Both the position numbers and the translations under genes were made by a program. A stretch of 63,194 bases of DNA, from contig QKHS01000009.1 of NCBI GenBank assembly GCA_003249955.1, forward strand, positions 1-63,194, given 5' to 3'. Source of the DNA: Bacteroidales bacterium (GTDB lineage Bacteria; Bacteroidota; Bacteroidia; Bacteroidales; ML635J-15). The notes beneath the pieces are model-generated. The model was not told the origin of the DNA. It saw only the letters and a list, made by a program, of their open reading frames with translations, and did not search any database. This document shows, piece by piece, positions 24,525-63,194 of the stretch. Position 1 is the stretch's first letter. Each line of letters starts with the position of its first letter.

Positions 24525-26549
24525 TTATTCTTCTATTTTGAACGTATATTCAAAAGTGCAGATTCTGTCGTCGTTGTTTTTAGCACTTACAGTTGATGCA
24601 CCTCTGGTGTTTGTCCCTGTTTTCCCGACCTGTAATGCAGATTCGAAAATATTGGATGCGTCTCCGCGGGTTGAATTGCCATGTTGTAAAATAGTGGCCG
24701 AAAGATTAAAAGCCTTATCAGAAGCAATTAGTTTGAAGATTTCGTTGCCATATGGAGGCCCGAACATTACTAAAGTATTTTTAAGGACAGCAGATTCTCC
24801 GGGTTCTAATACATATTCACGGCCATCAACATCATTAATGGTAGGAATTACAGGGTTGATAAAACCATCTGGTTGTATGTCGATAATGTTGAAAAAAGAT
24901 TTTTTTGTGCCGTAATTGGTTACTTTAATCAGCGCCATAACATTCGGGCTGAACACAGGAATATCATTTATCAACACCGACGAAGGATCGGGATAACCAA
25001 GAATGTCAAAACTTCCGTCGTCATTTATTTGTGCTTCTACAGGAATAAGTTCCATTACTACGTCAAATCTTTCGTTGTAGTAATCAAGATCTTTAATTAT
25101 TTTGCCCTGAGCATAATTATTAAGTGTGGAAATAACGTCAGAGTTAAGAATTTGGGTATCTGCATTTGAGATTTTGTGCAATTCTTTATTGTAAATTGAA
25201 TTGTTTACAGTAATTGTTTTTGCCCCTCTTGTTTTTGCATAGCTAAGTGTGATTTCAGGATTTTCATTGTCAATTACGGCAAAGCTTGAATTTGAGATTC
25301 CTGTTTGAAGTGATTCTTTTACATCGGCATCCATTTTAGGATCAATTGCAACTTTTACTTTTTGATCAGAAAATGTTCTGGCTTTAACAAAAGCCCAGGC
25401 ACTCTGATTGTTTTTAAATTTCATTTTGGTGTCAAGAGCAACAACAGATGTGAAATTGGTTGAACTGACAACTTTGCCTGAGTTCATAAGTTGTGTTGCA
25501 TTTGTTATGTTTGCAGTTCCAGGTTCTGCAAATACGATTAATGTACCCGGATTAATTCCGGCAAGACGGCCTGCATTTATTTCAACAACTGAGTCTGTCT
25601 TTATTGAGCTAAGGTTGAAATATTCAGTTTGAATTTCGTAATCGCCTCCAAAAACTGCGTAATCGATATCGCCTTCAATTGCTGGATTCTGGAAAGGGGC
25701 TTTTGTTGCCATTTCTGCCATGATTCGAGCAAAAACCTGACGGTAAGTGTCTCCTTCTTTCATTTGAGAAAAAGCTTTGTAGATGCAATAAGAAAGAGAC
25801 CCTACAGCATTGTTCTCATCATCGTAGGTTTCATAGTTTAGTTCATTTGCACTTGCTCCTGAAAATACAACAAACTTTGCCATCTGATCTGTTTTTACAC
25901 CGCGACTTGCAGGGGAGTCTGATGTTCCCATTCCAAAGCCTATTTTATTATCTTTAACAGTTTTTGGTGTCCAGTTTTCGGGCACAAGAGGCGGAGCACC
26001 ACCTCTTACTTTTGCCGATCCTCTTGTTCCTGTACCGGAATGACATGAGTCCAGAAATAGTAATATATGTCCGTTTGCTCCAAGTTTTATTCTTAGTTTA
26101 TTAATCCAATCTCCAAGTTCATCGTCCCTGAAATGGTTTCTTCCGTCGTAACCGTCTTTCATACTCATAGGAGCATCAAAGCTAACCAGAGCTTCATCAA
26201 GACCATCAATTTCATCACCATTGTCATCAAAAATCTGATGCCCGTGACCACTGTAATGAATAACAACATCGTCTCCGGCATTTATTTCAGAGTATAACGC
26301 TGTTAATGCATTTTCTATTCCTTCCTTAGTTGCATCGGCATCTCTTAAATACATTATATTTTGTTGCGGGAATCCGAGTCCTGTTAATGTTTTTTCAATT
26401 AACGGGACGTCATTGCCTGCACTTATAGGGTACCAGCCTGTAAGACTTTGATTGTATTCTCCAATGGCAATTATCAGAGCATATTTCTCAGCTTTTGCAA
26501 AAATTCCCGAGAAAATAGCAATAACAAAAATTATTACTGATTTTTTCAT
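24525..26549 (-). CDS. exported caspase-like (C14/metacaspase) peptidase
   Basis: A 674-aa protein with a signal peptide (MKKSVIIFVIAIFSGIFAKA) and a caspase-fold domain over residues ~22-290. The catalytic dyad is visible: His102 in HYSGHGHQIF and Cys169 in LDSCHSGTGT. Metacaspases typically cleave after Arg/Lys; here specificity is not shown. Residues ~320-530 are a beta-rich region, and 'IDIQPDGFINPVIPTINDVD' with 'ALQVGKTGTNTRG' follow, resembling the DUF4384-like C-termini of bacterial caspase-like proteins. No T9SS tail, so periplasmic is likely. A terminator separates it from the small exported protein encoded 60 bp upstream. Confidence 0.88.
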   Translation of the reverse strand: MKKSVIIFVIAIFSGIFAKAEKYALIIAIGEYNQSLTGWYPISAGNDVPLIEKTLTGLGFPQQNIMYLRDADATKEGIENALTALYSEINAGDDVVIHYSGHGHQIFDDNGDEIDGLDEALVSFDAPMSMKDGYDGRNHFRDDELGDWINKLRIKLGANGHILLFLDSCHSGTGTRGSAKVRGGAPPLVPENWTPKTVKDNKIGFGMGTSDSPASRGVKTDQMAKFVVFSGASANELNYETYDDENNAVGSLSYCIYKAFSQMKEGDTYRQVFARIMAEMATKAPFQNPAIEGDIDYAVFGGDYEIQTEYFNLSSIKTDSVVEINAGRLAGINPGTLIVFAEPGTANITNATQLMNSGKVVSSTNFTSVVALDTKMKFKNNQSAWAFVKARTFSDQKVKVAIDPKMDADVKESLQTGISNSSFAVIDNENPEITLSYAKTRGAKTITVNNSIYNKELHKISNADTQILNSDVISTLNNYAQGKIIKDLDYYNERFDVVMELIPVEAQINDDGSFDILGYPDPSSVLINDIPVFSPNVMALIKVTNYGTKKSFFNIIDIQPDGFINPVIPTINDVDGREYVLEPGESAVLKNTLVMFGPPYGNEIFKLIASDKAFNLSATILQHGNSTRGDASNIFESALQVGKTGTNTRGASTVSAKNNDDRICTFEYTFKIEE

Positions 26550-26609: not shown

Positions 26610-27035
26610 TTAAAAGTCTCCGCCTTCGGTTGAAGAAGCTCCTGATTCTTCAGTTTCCAGTTTTAAAAGAAATTCCTCGTTACATTCTCCTGAAGATTGC
26701 CATTGATATGTTTCTCCTAATGTGCGGCAAAAAACTTCGGCATATCCTTCCGGTAGGACTAATTGAGAATTTTCCCATGGGTTTAATCTGCCTTTGTAAA
26801 CTTTATCAACCCATAAATCAATATAGTATCCGGTCCAGTTGTCAAATTTAACTACGCAACCACCTCTTGATAATACCGGCTTTTCAATTGCAACATCTCC
26901 TGTCGGGATAACATACTCGGAAACGCCTCTTGATTTAACGACTTTTGTTCCGTTAAGAACTTGCTGTGCATTTACCACATTGGAAATGAAGAATAATGCA
27001 CCAACAACTAATAACATTGTAATTTTTGTTTTCAT
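26610..27035 (-). CDS. small exported protein next to the caspase-like peptidase
   Basis: A 141-aa protein with a signal peptide (MKTKITMLLVVGALFFISNVVNA). The mature protein contains 'CVVKFDNWTGYYIDLWVDKV', 'GRLNPWENSQLVLPEGYAEV' and two more Cys, which looks like a small beta-sandwich with a disulfide. The end is Ser/Glu/Gly rich. It is 60 bp upstream of the caspase-like gene on the same strand, separated by a terminator. It could be a substrate, inhibitor or unrelated; nothing in the sequence decides this. Confidence 0.6.
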   Translation of the reverse strand: MKTKITMLLVVGALFFISNVVNAQQVLNGTKVVKSRGVSEYVIPTGDVAIEKPVLSRGGCVVKFDNWTGYYIDLWVDKVYKGRLNPWENSQLVLPEGYAEVFCRTLGETYQWQSSGECNEEFLLKLETEESGASSTEGGDF

Positions 27036-27827: not shown

Positions 27828-27984
27828 TATTATTTGGAGGAATTTATGAAACAACCATTGTAGAGTTAAATAGGTGATAAATTTTGATTAACTCCTTATT
27901 CCCGTTTATATTTGGTGTTGTAATTTTTCCATATATGAAAAATGTGCAAAAAAAGACTCCACTTTAAAATAAGTGATGTCTTTG

Positions 27985-28078
27985 TGGGAACTGCCGGATT
28001 ACTCCCTATGGTCGTGAAATAAATGTTCGAACCAGCGACCCTCCCGACTATGTCGGGATGCTCCGACCCAACAGAATT
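27985..28078 (-). pseudogene. degenerate tRNA-Val copy, unit A
   Basis: Keeps the D-arm end, the variable loop and 5' T-arm (GGGTCGCTGGTTCGAA) and the 3' acceptor strand of the neighbouring tRNA-Val. The 5' acceptor strand is lost, the anticodon arm is replaced by TCCCGAC-ATA-GTCGGGA, and ~26 bp are inserted in the T-loop. It cannot fold as a normal tRNA. Confidence 0.75.
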
Positions 28079-28173
28079 GATTTTTCTTTTTATTTACATT
28101 AGTTGTTTTGCACTTATAGTCAATGGAGAATATGCAAAAAAAAGACACCACTTGAAAATAAGTGATGTCTTTG

Positions 28174-28267
28174 TGGGAACTGCTGGATTACTCCCTATGG
28201 TCGTGAAATAAATGTTCGAACCAGCGACCCTCCCGACTATGTCGGTATGCTCCGACCCAACAGAATT
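28174..28267 (-). pseudogene. degenerate tRNA-Val copy, unit B
   Basis: Same structure as unit A, with one change in the replaced anticodon-arm palindrome (GTCGGTA in place of GTCGGGA on the plus strand). The same T-loop insertion is present at the same site. Confidence 0.75.
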
Positions 28268-28363
28268 GATTTTTCTTTTCGTTTACATTAGTTGTTTTTT
28301 ACTTATAGTCAATGAAGAATATGAAAAAAAAAAGACACCACTTTAAAATAAGTGATGTCTTTG

Positions 28364-28457
28364 TGGGAACTGCTGGATTACTCCCTATGGTCGTGAAATA
28401 AATGTTCGAACCAGCGACCCTCCCGACTATGTCGGGATGCTCCGAACCAACAGAATT
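28364..28457 (-). pseudogene. degenerate tRNA-Val copy, unit C
   Basis: Same structure as units A and B. It retains GTTGGTTCGGAGCA, closest to the intact tRNA's GTTGGTTCAGAGCA, so this copy, nearest to the real tRNA, has diverged least in the D-arm. Confidence 0.75.
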
Positions 28458-28513
28458 GATTTTTCTTTTCGTTTACATTAGTTGTTTTGCACTTATAGTC
28501 AATGAAGAATATG

Positions 28514-28550
28514 CAAAAAAAAACACCACTTTAAAATAAGTGATGTCTTT
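28514..28550 (-). terminator. terminator directly after tRNA-Val
   Basis: On the minus strand the sequence right after the tRNA 3' end folds as AAGACATCACTT / AAGTGGTGTCTT, with G-U pairing, followed by a long T-run. The same hairpin is repeated after each degenerate copy. Confidence 0.8.
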
Positions 28551-28551
28551 G

Positions 28552-28626
28552 TGGGAACTGCTGGATTCGAACCAGCGACCCCCTGCTTGTAAGGCAGGTG
28601 CTCTGAACCAACTGAGCTAAGCTCCC
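28552..28626 (-). tRNA. tRNA-Val (anticodon TAC)
   Basis: A full cloverleaf on the minus strand. The acceptor arms GGGAGCT / AGTTCCC pair with one G-U; the D-arm holds AGTTGGTTCAGA. The anticodon arm is CCTGC-CTTACAA-GCAGG, giving TAC and thus valine. The T-arm is GCTGG-TTCGAAT-CCAGC. The discriminator base is A and CCA is not encoded. A promoter lies upstream and a terminator immediately downstream. Confidence 0.96.
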
Positions 28627-28659
28627 TTTTTTGTAGAACGTATTCCCGTTTTGGGACTG

Positions 28660-28691
28660 CAAATATATAGCACATTTATTTATTTGCCAAA
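28660..28691 (-). promoter_or_regulatory. promoter of tRNA-Val
   Basis: On the minus strand, TTTG (28688-28691), a 20-bp spacer, then TATATTTG (28660-28667). This fits the Bacteroidota -33/-7 consensus well. It predicts a start about 25-30 bp before the tRNA 5' end. Confidence 0.75.
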
Positions 28692-59610: not shown

Positions 59611-62600
59611 ATGAAAAAGACCACAGGATTATTTTTTGCTATTGCCTTATTGTTGACAACAGTATGTGACTTTAGTTTATTAAATGCTCAGACTCATGGA
59701 AGTCTGGATGAGACTTTTAACTCAATTGACGGTGGATTTGGAATAGGGACACCCCCAAATGATATTGTATCTGATGTTGTTGAGCAGACAGACGGAAAAC
59801 TTATTGTTGTAGGACCTTTTCTTGATTTTGAAACAGCTTCGAACACCAATCGTATTGTCAGGTTATACCCGGACAGCAGAGTTGACGAAAACTTCAATGC
59901 AGGAGGAACACGTGCGGACAATCGTATAAACAGCGTTACTTTACAGAGTGATGGTAAAATATTAATCGGCGGATGGTTTACAACTTATGGCGGCGTTTCC
60001 AGAAATCGCATTGCCAGATTAAATACGGATGGTAGCCTTGATACAGGTTTTGACCCGGGAGCAGGAGCAAACAATATTGTTAGCTGTGTCAGAGTTCAAA
60101 CAGATGGAAAAATTCTTATAACCGGATATTTTACCGAATATAACGGAGTCGCAAGAAACCGTATTGCCAGATTAAACAGCGACGGTAGCCTTGATACAGG
60201 TTTCGATCCGGGAGCGGGAGCACAAAATACAGTATATGGAATGGCAATTCAACCCGACGGAAAGATACTTATTTGTGGTCCGTTTACTTCTTATGACGGA
60301 ACAGCAAGAAATTTTATTGCACGGGTTAATACAAACGGTAGCCTCGACACAAGTTTTGATCCGGGAACAGGAGCAAGTTCTACAGTAGAAAATATTGCTC
60401 TTACAAATGATGGTAAGATTGTTATTGCCGGGTGGTTTACATCATATAACGGAACTGTCAGGAACCGTATCGCCCGGTTAAATTCAAACGGAAGCCTGGA
60501 TACAGGATTCGCGCCTTCTACCGGAATAGGAAGCCAGTATGCTTACAGAATATCTGTTCAAAGTGACAATAAACTTATCGTAGTCGGTAATTTCACAACT
60601 GTAAATTCGCTTACAAGAAACCGCATTGTAAAATTTAATACTGATGGCAGTACAGATACAGGATATACTTATTCAACAGGAGCAAACGGAATTGTCAGAA
60701 GTGTACTTCTTTTAGCAAATGGCAAACTTGTAATTGGTGGTGAATTTGGAACATTCGATGCAGAGACAAGGTTTAAACTTGCAAAACTTAATGCAGACGG
60801 GACTTTAGATCCAACTTTTATGGCAAGAAATGGTGCGGGAGCAAATGTTTATGCCAGTGATATCCAAGCTGACGGCAGGATTATAATCGGAGGTGCATTT
60901 CAAACTTATAACAATATTGCCCGAAACAGGATTGTACGTATTAACACCGATGGTTCAGCGGACAATACATTTTCAGGAGTTCCCGGAGCAAATGCAGATG
61001 TAAATGCTGTAAAGATCCAACCTGACGGAAAAGTTATAATTGCCGGTTCTTTTACGACTGTTGACGGGAGTACCAGAAACAGAATTGCCAGACTAAATTC
61101 CAATGGAAATATAGATGCCGGATTTGATCCGGGAACAGGTGCAAACGATATTATATATGCAATTGCTTTGCAAAGTGATGGTAAGATTTTGGTCGGAGGC
61201 GCATTTACAACTTTCAATGGGGTAACTGCAAACCGGATAGTAAGACTGAATTCGGACGGGAGCATTGATGCAACATTTAATTCAGGTTCGGGAATGGATA
61301 ATACCGTTTACTGTCTTGTTTTACAATCTGATGGTAAAGTACTGGCAGGTGGCTCATTCACAACGTACAACGGAATAAGTGCAAATAAAATAGTGAGAAT
61401 AAGTACGACAGGTACAACCGACTCAGGTTTTACAACAGGTAGCGGTTTTAATAACGATGTCCGTTCAATTGCCGTTCAAACAAGCGGAGTTATTTTAGCC
61501 GGCGGAGACTTTACTACTTTTAACGGATCGGCACAAAACCGCCTGGCCGGATTAAATTCAGACGGGACATTAAATACAGTATTTAATACAGGCAGCGGAT
61601 TTGACGGAATTGTTTATTCAATTTTGTTACAAGCAGATCAAAGAGTTATTGTTGGCGGGAATTTTACAACATATGACGGTAATTCAAAAAATATGTTTGT
61701 AAGATTAAAAACAGATGGTGCAATTGATGAAGGTTTTGTTACCGGAACCGGGCCTTCCGCGATGATAAGAACCATCTCTTTGCAACCGGACAATAAACTT
61801 ATAGCCGGCGGAGCATTTACATCTTATAACGGAACAGGGAGAACAAGAGTTGCAAGAATAAATGCAGCTCCGTGTAATGGATTTGCTGCTACAGCAACAG
61901 TTTCTCAGCAGCCATGTCCGTCATTGAGTAATGGTATCATAACAATTTCGGCAAGCGGTGGAACAACACCTTATTCTTATGCATGGAGCAGTGGCCAGTC
62001 AACAGCTTCAGCAAGTAATTTGCCGGCAGCAAATTATACAATTACAGTTACGGATGCCAATTCTTGTATCGAGATTTTAAGTGCAGGTTTAAATAACGAT
62101 CCGCTGACAATACTAACTCAACCGGTAAGTCAATCGGCATGTGATGGAAATAATGATGATATTACCTTTACCGTATCAGCAAATAAAGCAAATGCCTGGC
62201 AGTGGAAGAAGAACGGTTCAAATATTTCCGGACAAACAACCAACACATTAACTCTGAATAATGTGACGACAGCAAATACAGGTAATTACACCTGTCAGGT
62301 TTCCAACACCTTATGCAGCGAGTCAATAACCAGCAGTACAGCATCTTTAACAGTGACCGGCAGCATATCAATCACAACCCAGCCTGTAACACAATCAGCT
62401 TGTGCAGGAACAAATGTAATATTGTCGGTTTTAGCAACAAATGCGACATCATATCAATGGAAGAAAAACGGAACAAATATAAGCGGAGCTACAAGTGCAA
62501 ATCTGGTGTTAAGTTCTGTTTCATCCTCAGATGCAGCAAATTATACGGTAAGCGTAAGCAATTCTTGTCAGTCCGTTGTAAGCAATACTGCTGTATTAAG

Positions 62601-63194
62601 TATTAATCCATTACCGGCAATCACAACCCAGCCCCTAACACAATCAGCATGTGCAGGAACGAATGTAACATTATCAGTTGCAGCAACAAATGCAACATCT
62701 TACCAATGGGAGAAAAACGGGACCAATATAAGCGGGGCAACAAGTTCAAGTCTGGTATTAAACGCTGTTTCATCCGTAGATGCAGCAAGTTATACTGTAA
62801 ACGTAATCAATACATGTCAGACACTTACCAGTAACGCTGCTGTATTAACAGTAAATCCATTACCGGCAATCACAACCCAGCCCGTAACACAATCAGCTTG
62901 TGAAGGAACAAATGTAACATTATCAGTTGCAGCAACAAATGCAACATCTTACCAATGGAAGAAAAACGGGACAAATATAAGCGGGGCAACAAGTGCAAAT
63001 CTGATGTTAAATTCTGTTTCATCCGTAGATGCAGCAAGTTATACTGTAAACGTAATCAATACATGTCAGACACTTACAAGTAACGCTGCAGTTTTAACAA
63101 TTAATCTTTTGCCGTCAATTGCAACTCAGCCGGTATCAGCTATGCAGTGTGAGGGTACAGATATTACGTTATCAGTTTTAGCAAACAATGCAAG
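59611..63194 (+). CDS. very large exported delta-60-repeat / Ig-repeat protein (3' end outside window)
   Basis: An uninterrupted frame from the ATG at 59611 to the window end (1194 codons). Signal peptide MKKTTGLFFAIALLLTTV..NAQ. Residues ~30-750 are about 13 delta-60 (DUF5122-type beta-propeller) repeats of ~54 aa, e.g. 'QSDGKILIGGWFTTYGGVSR', 'NRIARLNTDGSLDTGFDPGA'. Then a SprB-like 'ITISASGGTTPYSYAWSSGQ', then 83-aa Ig-like repeats ('VTQSACAGTNVTLSVAATNA', 'SYQWKKNGTNISGA'). A T9SS tail is expected beyond the window but not seen. Likely a long surface adhesin or gliding-type protein. Confidence 0.85.
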   Translation, partial: MKKTTGLFFAIALLLTTVCDFSLLNAQTHGSLDETFNSIDGGFGIGTPPNDIVSDVVEQTDGKLIVVGPFLDFETASNTNRIVRLYPDSRVDENFNAGGTRADNRINSVTLQSDGKILIGGWFTTYGGVSRNRIARLNTDGSLDTGFDPGAGANNIVSCVRVQTDGKILITGYFTEYNGVARNRIARLNSDGSLDTGFDPGAGAQNTVYGMAIQPDGKILICGPFTSYDGTARNFIARVNTNGSLDTSFDPGTGASSTVENIALTNDGKIVIAGWFTSYNGTVRNRIARLNSNGSLDTGFAPSTGIGSQYAYRISVQSDNKLIVVGNFTTVNSLTRNRIVKFNTDGSTDTGYTYSTGANGIVRSVLLLANGKLVIGGEFGTFDAETRFKLAKLNADGTLDPTFMARNGAGANVYASDIQADGRIIIGGAFQTYNNIARNRIVRINTDGSADNTFSGVPGANADVNAVKIQPDGKVIIAGSFTTVDGSTRNRIARLNSNGNIDAGFDPGTGANDIIYAIALQSDGKILVGGAFTTFNGVTANRIVRLNSDGSIDATFNSGSGMDNTVYCLVLQSDGKVLAGGSFTTYNGISANKIVRISTTGTTDSGFTTGSGFNNDVRSIAVQTSGVILAGGDFTTFNGSAQNRLAGLNSDGTLNTVFNTGSGFDGIVYSILLQADQRVIVGGNFTTYDGNSKNMFVRLKTDGAIDEGFVTGTGPSAMIRTISLQPDNKLIAGGAFTSYNGTGRTRVARINAAPCNGFAATATVSQQPCPSLSNGIITISASGGTTPYSYAWSSGQSTASASNLPAANYTITVTDANSCIEILSAGLNNDPLTILTQPVSQSACDGNNDDITFTVSANKANAWQWKKNGSNISGQTTNTLTLNNVTTANTGNYTCQVSNTLCSESITSSTASLTVTGSISITTQPVTQSACAGTNVILSVLATNATSYQWKKNGTNISGATSANLVLSSVSSSDAANYTVSVSNSCQSVVSNTAVLSINPLPAITTQPLTQSACAGTNVTLSVAATNATSYQWEKNGTNISGATSSSLVLNAVSSVDAASYTVNVINTCQTLTSNAAVLTVNPLPAITTQPVTQSACEGTNVTLSVAATNATSYQWKKNGTNISGATSANLMLNSVSSVDAASYTVNVINTCQTLTSNAAVLTINLLPSIATQPVSAMQCEGTDITLSVLANNA
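62371..63194 (+). repeat. tandem 249-bp Ig-domain-coding repeats
   Basis: Repeat units start at 62371, 62620, 62869 and 63118, with a period of exactly 249 bp (83 codons). The middle units are nearly identical in long stretches, while the first is more diverged. A preceding, weaker Ig-like unit lies at ~62112. The array continues past the window end. Confidence 0.9.

Follow-up and report, generated by a model that had tools for sequence, protein, structure and literature searches.

Damaged tRNA copies in tandem behind a tRNA-Val gene: one member of a family found across Bacteroidota

Introduction

Why should a working tRNA gene be trailed by three broken copies of itself? The question is raised by a tRNA-Val gene in the window (the whole stretch of 63,194 nucleotides that was analysed), for which the original prediction offered two readings: a tRNA-targeted repeat element, or a family of tRNA-like small RNAs. 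We find that dead tRNA halves of this kind are not a matter of local decay alone: the array belongs to a family spread over the phylum, which in its full form has a nuclease gene. The damaged copies constitute a widespread, apparently undescribed family in Bacteroidota.

The tRNA-Val array

What does the array consist of? The intact tRNA-Val(tac) lies on the minus strand at 28551–28626 (ARAGORN; Rfam tRNA, 73.9 bits), and its exact anticodon-arm pattern has 1 match in the window's genome. Its terminator hairpin and T run, read from the sequence, occupy 28515–28550 on the same strand. Then follow, also on the minus strand, three D-type (downstream) dead copies: unit 1, nearest the tRNA, at 28327–28512, unit 2 at 28137–28322 and unit 3 at 27945–28133, with spacings of 190 and 189 bp. 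ARAGORN, Rfam and TRF thus bear out the complete tRNA-Val(TAC) and the three tandem damaged copies of the original prediction. Two points of that prediction are corrected: the array runs on the minus strand, and 28627–28691 comprises only the leader and putative promoter. The other two units share 92% and 95% identity with a 205-nt reference copy (TRF score 1152), a tandem similarity far above chance.

Unit 1 reads, in order, spacer, partial D-arm, hairpin, 3′ half with a T-loop insert, terminator. The hairpin, TCCCGAC-ATA-GTCGGGA, sits exactly at tRNA positions 27–43 of the intact gene, the anticodon arm. It had been claimed for each unit, and is exact in the nearest (28421–28437, minus strand) and the farthest (28042–28058, minus strand); in the middle one (28231–28247, minus strand, read from the sequence) it carries one mismatch. 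The shared T-loop insertion of about 26 bp is there too, counted here as 27 nt: ACATTTATTTCACGACCATAGGGAGTA, read from the sequence on the minus strand at 28379–28405, 28189–28215 and 28000–28026 in units 1, 2 and 3. Every unit retains a partial D-arm, the T-arm and the acceptor 3′ strand and has lost the 5′ acceptor strand, and each is closed by the same hairpin that serves as tRNA-Val's own terminator; both features had been described correctly.

No unit has a complete acceptor stem or tRNA fold, and ARAGORN and Rfam call the intact gene alone in the array. The units match no Rfam family at threshold. Two units were folded, with results somewhat stabler than shuffles (z −2.1 and −3.3). The pairing GGTCG/CGACC, from which a new structure had been suggested, belongs to the best fold of one and to the other's centroid; in three relatives (G001, G003 and G014) it becomes GGTCA/CGACT with a mismatch. 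Profile search finds no nuclease remnant in the units or spacer. A nucleotide alignment to G003 was reached by 4 of 500 shuffles, is partly tRNA sequence itself and was not counted; alignments to G014 (72 of 500 shuffles) and G001 (332 of 500) were dismissed as chance level.

Two minus-strand genes occupy 24525–26549 (a caspase-like protein, by eye) and 26610–27035 (a small secreted-looking protein), and frames similar to this pair follow the G001 array in the same order (L002, from about 820). Elsewhere in the window, imperfect tandem repeats of 153 and 249 bp at 60001–60376 and 62369–63193 are probably repetitive coding sequence.

The same gene across the genus

If three damaged copies follow tRNA-Val here, what follows it in related genomes? 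A DNA search with one window unit, run on 61 genomes (26 of them in the window's genus), gave matches in 9, the window's own included. Five lie in the genus; a match outside it, in G060, has no tRNA nearby. We then inspected tRNA-Val, with about 400 nt downstream, in 16 genomes from the genus. Fifteen of these have one exact match to the anticodon-arm pattern; G012 has two, of which one reaches a contig edge and the other has no damaged copy.

Five genomes carry damaged copies at this gene. The window's genome (G000) has three. In G003 a single copy lies behind an open GIY-YIG gene and in G014 behind a broken one; G011 has one copy, with no ORF and without the tRNA's terminator. In G001 four matches form an ORF-less array at a contig start, whose junction with tRNA-Val we infer, since the array opens one contig and the tRNA-Val gene ends another. 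Ten other genomes show no damaged copy in about 400 nt 3′ of the gene.

All five carriers have the T-loop insert in common (diverged in G011), and their copies therefore share an ancestry. The original prediction had one damaged copy arising first and being amplified afterwards, and this order is supported by the insert common to five species together with the differing unit lengths and spacers of the G000 and G001 arrays. The T-stems of the dead copies match the local tRNA, GCTGG in G000 and AATGG elsewhere. Live and dead terminators agree at 0.85–1.0 within a genome (G000, G001, G003, G014); between genomes the figure is 0.50–0.59, or 0.72–0.85 for G003 against G014. Live and dead copies thus appear to have been homogenised within each genome.

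Is the intact tRNA protected by a changed sequence? A recoded rescue tRNA would be expected to have an altered anticodon arm in occupied genomes. This is not so in the window's genus: the tRNA-Val anticodon arm is identical in the occupied genomes and in 9 of the 10 empty ones, and immunity of the intact tRNA by recoding is therefore not seen.

Other tRNA genes and other genomes

Is tRNA-Val the only gene affected? The window's genome contains 8 exact TCCCGAY..RTCGGGA hairpins (reversed-pattern control, 1), and 7 of them sit in damaged copies beside five tRNA genes: Val(tac), Lys(ttt), Lys(ctt), Met(cat) and Pro(tgg), the last with two upstream copies. The eighth falls within a stretch taken by eye for RNase P RNA. 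This genome also has two GIY-YIG frames with one stop each, on contigs C14 and C92; both come after the Lys(ttt) terminator sequence and for that reason are probably one repeat broken by contig ends. In G003, 6 of 7 hairpins were judged by eye to adjoin tRNA genes (three at Asp, the others at Val, Asn and Pro), and in G089 all three are at tRNA-Val.

Two ORF-less arrays are twins of the window's at other tRNA genes. One, in G003 (contig C2, 9083–9481; L231), has three units 3′ of tRNA-Asp(gtc), 191–192 bp apart, with the hairpin in the T-arm. The other (L275) has three copies about 160 bp apart downstream of tRNA-Lys.

How far does the family extend? A strict pattern matched 10 of 395 genomes of the phylum, and a slightly shorter one, applied to two families, matched 9 of 108 genomes in one and 15 of 107 in the other; the reversed controls gave 0 in each case. 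A scan of 84,980 species returned at least 116 matching stretches. Bacteroidota is named in 72 of the 80 titles listed from it; the remaining 8 are assigned to Marinimicrobia, Kryptoniota, Ignavibacteria, Chlorobiota and a few further groups. The matches listed comprise 159 sites. At 114 of these the nearest tRNA is intact, on the same strand and within 1.5 kb; 3 have an opposite-strand tRNA, 1 a tRNA farther away and 41, often at the end of the fetched stretch, none called. The search pattern includes tRNA letters, so that this nearness is partly built in; the counts of retained halves and of nuclease positions are less exposed to that bias.

Which part of the tRNA survives in each copy? Halves were scored against the adjacent intact tRNA and taken as kept at 0.8 or more. 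Among the matches listed, U (upstream) copies keep the 5′ half in 42 of 49 cases and the 3′ half in 2 of 51; D copies keep the 3′ half in 32 of 51 and the 5′ half in 9 of 55, and the acceptor 5′ strand, at the same threshold, in 3 of 55. At 100 sites among these matches, 41 U copies have the 5′ half only, 1 the 3′ half only, 6 neither and 1 both; for D copies the numbers are 26 with the 3′ half only, 2 with the 5′ half only, 17 with neither and 6 with both. A Fisher test on the four single-half cells gives 9e-16, on rows that are not independent. Taking one per locus and type, still among the matches listed, leaves 33 U copies with the 5′ half only and 1 with the 3′ half only, against 25 D copies with the 3′ half only and 2 with the 5′ half only. 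A second set comprised 45 sites, of which 2 D sites at edges and 10 sites without a tRNA were set aside; the rest repeat the pattern (U: 9 with the 5′ half only, 1 both; D: 16 with the 3′ half only, 4 both, 1 with the 5′ half only, 2 neither). The two sets overlap in part, 6 of the 45 contexts being found word for word in the first as well.

Some tRNAs are flanked on both sides: 18 loci, 15 among the matches listed, some of them complex and one (L106) a mis-called tRNA, and 3 in the second set, one of which repeats L039. The span between hairpins is 407–489 bp in the nine loci with a nuclease domain between them and mostly 212–298 bp in those without one. In most of the two-side-flanked loci the outer halves hardly differ from the inner ones, as local duplication would lead one to expect. 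The sole clear exception is L112, whose outer halves are unlike the inner tRNA in T-stem, acceptor and terminator; its outer acceptor strands pair 7/7 by hand, and the cross-pairings 6/7. Reciprocal damaged halves thus flank intact tRNAs across Bacteroidota and neighbouring phyla; the downstream ones retain the terminator as well as the 3′ half, and in the set searched the anticodon arm is replaced by a hairpin. The search proposed in the original prediction, for the same arrangement at other tRNA genes of Bacteroidota, finds it at many such genes in many genomes, and the tRNA-targeted repeat element is supported. A local event of decay and duplication and nothing more, named there as the refuting case, is contradicted by these genomes and by the damaged copies at four further tRNA genes of the window's own.

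How constant is the hairpin? The first six pairs were fixed by the search pattern, and at the 159 sites among the matches listed the seventh is TA in 90, CG in 62, TG in 4 and CA in 3; the loops are of 98 distinct kinds. Other stems exist, and hairpins also occur nested within each other, in T-arms and in D-loops. Among 15 of the 26 loci of one genus, those that were viewed, three damaged copies retain the anticodon arm, and their hairpin sits in the T-arm. Our guesses at its origin are a product of repair at extruded tRNA arms or a structure that blocks re-cutting.

Several loci depart from the common design. In L172 (G032, 780–2650) tRNA-Val has an array of numerous damaged copies whose stem is a different one, TTCCGT-CTTAAAA-CGGAA; two GIY-YIG frames occur there too. 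L178, L179 and L192 have GIY-YIG genes downstream of tRNA-Ala(ggc); in the first two, the dead halves after the GIY-YIG gene bear long hairpins other than the TCCCGA stem. L248, a viral contig, has at 1–400 a tRNA-Lys with upstream dead copies whose hairpin loop itself contains nested hairpins. Transport by phages was considered and set aside: the viral contigs give this one matching stretch, at tRNA-Lys.

The GIY-YIG nuclease gene

What lies between the intact tRNA and the dead half? Often it is a GIY-YIG gene, ending just before or inside the tRNA-like DNA. Among the matches listed, 58 sites lie downstream of a tRNA, and at 35 of them a GIY-YIG domain stops within 100 nt ahead of the hairpin; none of the 56 upstream sites shows this. 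In the full set of 159 sites such a domain is present at 51, and at 45 of the 51 the gap is 11–31 nt. Pfam confirmed the family for all three proteins tested. The nearest solved relatives of these predicted nucleases are the UPF0213 proteins 1zg2 (1e-9) and 1ywl (2e-7), followed more weakly by SLX1 (6e-4). A profile search for the nuclease, made with no regard to hairpins, gave matches in 24 of 41 relatives. Of the 30 loci fetched from it, 14, with 9 of the best 10 among them, directly follow a tRNA gene or a damaged copy on the same strand. A point for annotation is that the ends of some such genes are read out of tRNA-like DNA, and that dead copies can be called as odd tRNAs.

Do the nucleases follow their hosts or their tRNAs? 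In a quick tree of 82 domains, 60 of them labelled by the upstream tRNA (77 columns, many forks open), isotype changes 11 times, against 18 to 23 in 500 shuffles. On 34 named loci isotype changes 4 times (shuffles, 7 or more) and host class 12 times (16 or more). From these 4 changes against 12, the nuclease lineages appear to follow tRNA isotype more closely than host class, with a host signal also present. A search of the openly licensed literature gave, among the papers listed, no account of GIY-YIG genes that lie between split copies of a tRNA on a bacterial chromosome, which does not establish their absence in print.

Origin of the damaged copies

How might a nuclease gene and a set of dead halves be connected? 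We think it probable that the window's units are what is left, amplified and without an ORF, of a homing-like element living at tRNA genes, an element whose mobility we infer. The nuclease would cut tRNA genes of the isotype it is associated with. When the cut is mended by homologous recombination, a unit of intact tRNA, terminator and nuclease gene would be inserted or duplicated in the target tRNA gene, and dead halves would be left around a working tRNA. Recombination among the repeated halves and terminators might then expand, homogenise or delete units. In the window's lineage the nuclease gene would have been lost and three downstream halves left. In favour of this reading are the reciprocal halves, the place of the nuclease gene ahead of downstream copies, the nuclease lineages that follow isotype, the open gene of G003 and the broken one of G014 at the same tRNA-Val, the five affected tRNA genes of the window's genome, the ORF-less triple arrays at tRNA-Asp and tRNA-Lys, and the tandem amplification driven by SegB in phage (PMC13096335). 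By analogy, the loci may well work like SegB of phage T6. Several observations count against a homing-like element: among the matches listed, 17 of 51 D copies keep neither half and 6 keep both; no nuclease remnant was found in the window's units; the G011 copy has no terminator; anticodon arms in the genus are not recoded; outer and inner halves mostly agree; some damaged copies keep the anticodon arm; and the nuclease tree, built on 77 columns, retains some host signal.

A more specific form, ‘home-and-rescue’, seems to us rather less probable than not. The loci would form a new class of minimal mobile elements, about 410–490 bp from hairpin to hairpin, that split a tRNA gene at the anticodon arm and bring a replacement tRNA and an isotype-specific GIY-YIG nuclease; the target tRNA gene would often be single-copy. 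Nested re-insertion into the element's own rescue tRNA would build up arrays of dead halves, with 5′ halves on the upstream side and 3′ halves on the other, and the window's array would be an ORF-less derivative. This splitting and rescue is weakened because anticodon arms are unchanged, outer and inner halves are usually identical and some copies keep the anticodon arm.

Could plain tandem duplication and decay suffice, with tRNA genes copied by slippage or recombination, palindromes (frequent in these genomes) falling into surplus dead copies and the nuclease gene a bystander? In its favour, one genus often has two intact tRNA-Val genes in tandem, most outer halves match the inner ones, no remnant of a nuclease gene was found in the window's array, and such hairpins also occur elsewhere in some genomes (31 in G140 and 26 in G171, a minority of them examined). 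Duplication and decay nevertheless fail to predict that the half lost depends on position, or that nuclease lineages track tRNA isotype, and we regard them as an improbable explanation.

Do the units instead yield tRNA-like small RNAs, decoys or regulators made through terminator read-through? Small RNAs made by read-through of a tRNA terminator have been proposed for rtT of E. coli. The stem of the hairpin is kept while its loops vary, each unit has a terminator, and the folds are somewhat stabler than shuffles. However, no tRNA fold is possible when, among the matches listed, the acceptor 5′ strand survives in so few D copies and the 3′ half in so few U copies; the proposed new pairing is unconserved in relatives, the live tRNA's own terminator precedes the units, and no Rfam family matches at threshold. 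The small-RNA family of the original prediction is unsupported, and a tRNA-like small RNA from the window's units is unlikely.

Scars of islands that use a tRNA 3′ end as attachment site for a tyrosine recombinase would account for D copies as 3′-end repeats at tRNA genes; they are very improbable, because attachment sites explain neither the replaced anticodon arm nor the upstream 5′ halves and the flanked stretches span only about 0.2–0.5 kb, many with a GIY-YIG gene. It is equally hard to credit an amplification useful to the host against tRNA-cleaving enzymes, by dose or decoy: in the available text of PMC13096335, amplification of tRNA-Tyr in phage T6 defeats the tRNA-cutting defence Septu, but the copies amplified here are dead and a single tRNA is intact in the window's array.

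If the homing-like element is the right reading, tRNA genes across the phylum would be targeted by tiny selfish nucleases that spare their hosts by leaving an intact tRNA copy in place or by supplying one. A testable origin would then exist for repeats of a tRNA tail in tandem, for example at E. coli tyrT, and the phage SegB–tRNA system would have chromosomal counterparts.

Comparison with known systems

What, then, is already known of such a design? The original prediction knew of no described element like it, which was too strong: 178-bp repeats lie at tyrT/tyrV of E. coli, and tandem amplification of segB with a tRNA is described in phage (in the available text of PMC13096335).

Bacterial group I introns occupy tRNA anticodon loops. 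Like them, the present copies have a sequence at the anticodon arm of a tRNA gene; unlike them, they leave the working tRNA-Val uninterrupted, and no intron family is found in the window at the Rfam gathering threshold.

In arrangement the closest system is the rtT repeats of E. coli. In E. coli K-12 the tRNA 3′ end recurs three times after tyrV, at 178-bp spacing, and once between tyrT and tyrV; the repeats carry large T-arm inserts, and the record annotates rttR and tpr. As in the window, tandem units of about 180 bp follow a tRNA, each with the tRNA 3′ end and a T-arm insert (189–190 bp, three times, in the window against 178 bp in E. coli). The 2.4 kb examined at tyrT/tyrV differs in having neither a GIY-YIG gene nor a TCCCGA hairpin. 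Rfam RtT has no match to the window up to E 10, and homology of the T-loop inserts with rtT was unconvincing (best of 14 comparisons, 10 of 1000 shuffles).

In mechanism the closest tested system would be SegB of phage T6. According to the available text of PMC13096335, SegB is a free-standing GIY-YIG homing endonuclease that cuts inside tRNA genes, and phage segB is enriched near tRNA genes. The unit amplified in T6, 718 bp long, comprises tRNA-Tyr and a C-terminally truncated segB; its amplification needs the nuclease activity of SegB and phage recombination genes, and there is microhomology between the 5′ end of the tRNA and the 3′ end of segB (PMC13096335). The present loci resemble this system, as far as that text describes it, in the GIY-YIG family, in their place by a tRNA gene, in the tandem tRNA units and in nuclease genes that end at or in tRNA-like DNA, which recalls the microhomology (PMC13096335). 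SegB differs in belonging to a phage and not a chromosome and in amplifying a full-length tRNA, and the available text of PMC13096335 describes no dead tRNA halves or hairpins. In the present nucleases, unlike SegB, the matched domain covers about 78 positions, and the lineages appear to follow tRNA isotype.

The SegB preferred motif was rejected as a universal target: 80 of 128 D copies adjoin intact tRNAs without it, 21 keep it and 27 have lost it, and of 84 U copies 47 stand by tRNAs without it, 1 keeps it and 36 have lost it, the loss in U copies following from that of the 3′ half. As for the traits of SegB, a GIY-YIG gene next to the tRNA is absent in the window, present in G003 and broken in G014, and tandem amplification of tRNA-containing units is found. 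We conclude that the window's array is best seen as a variant on kinds already known, tRNA-tail repeats and SegB-like tRNA-associated nucleases.
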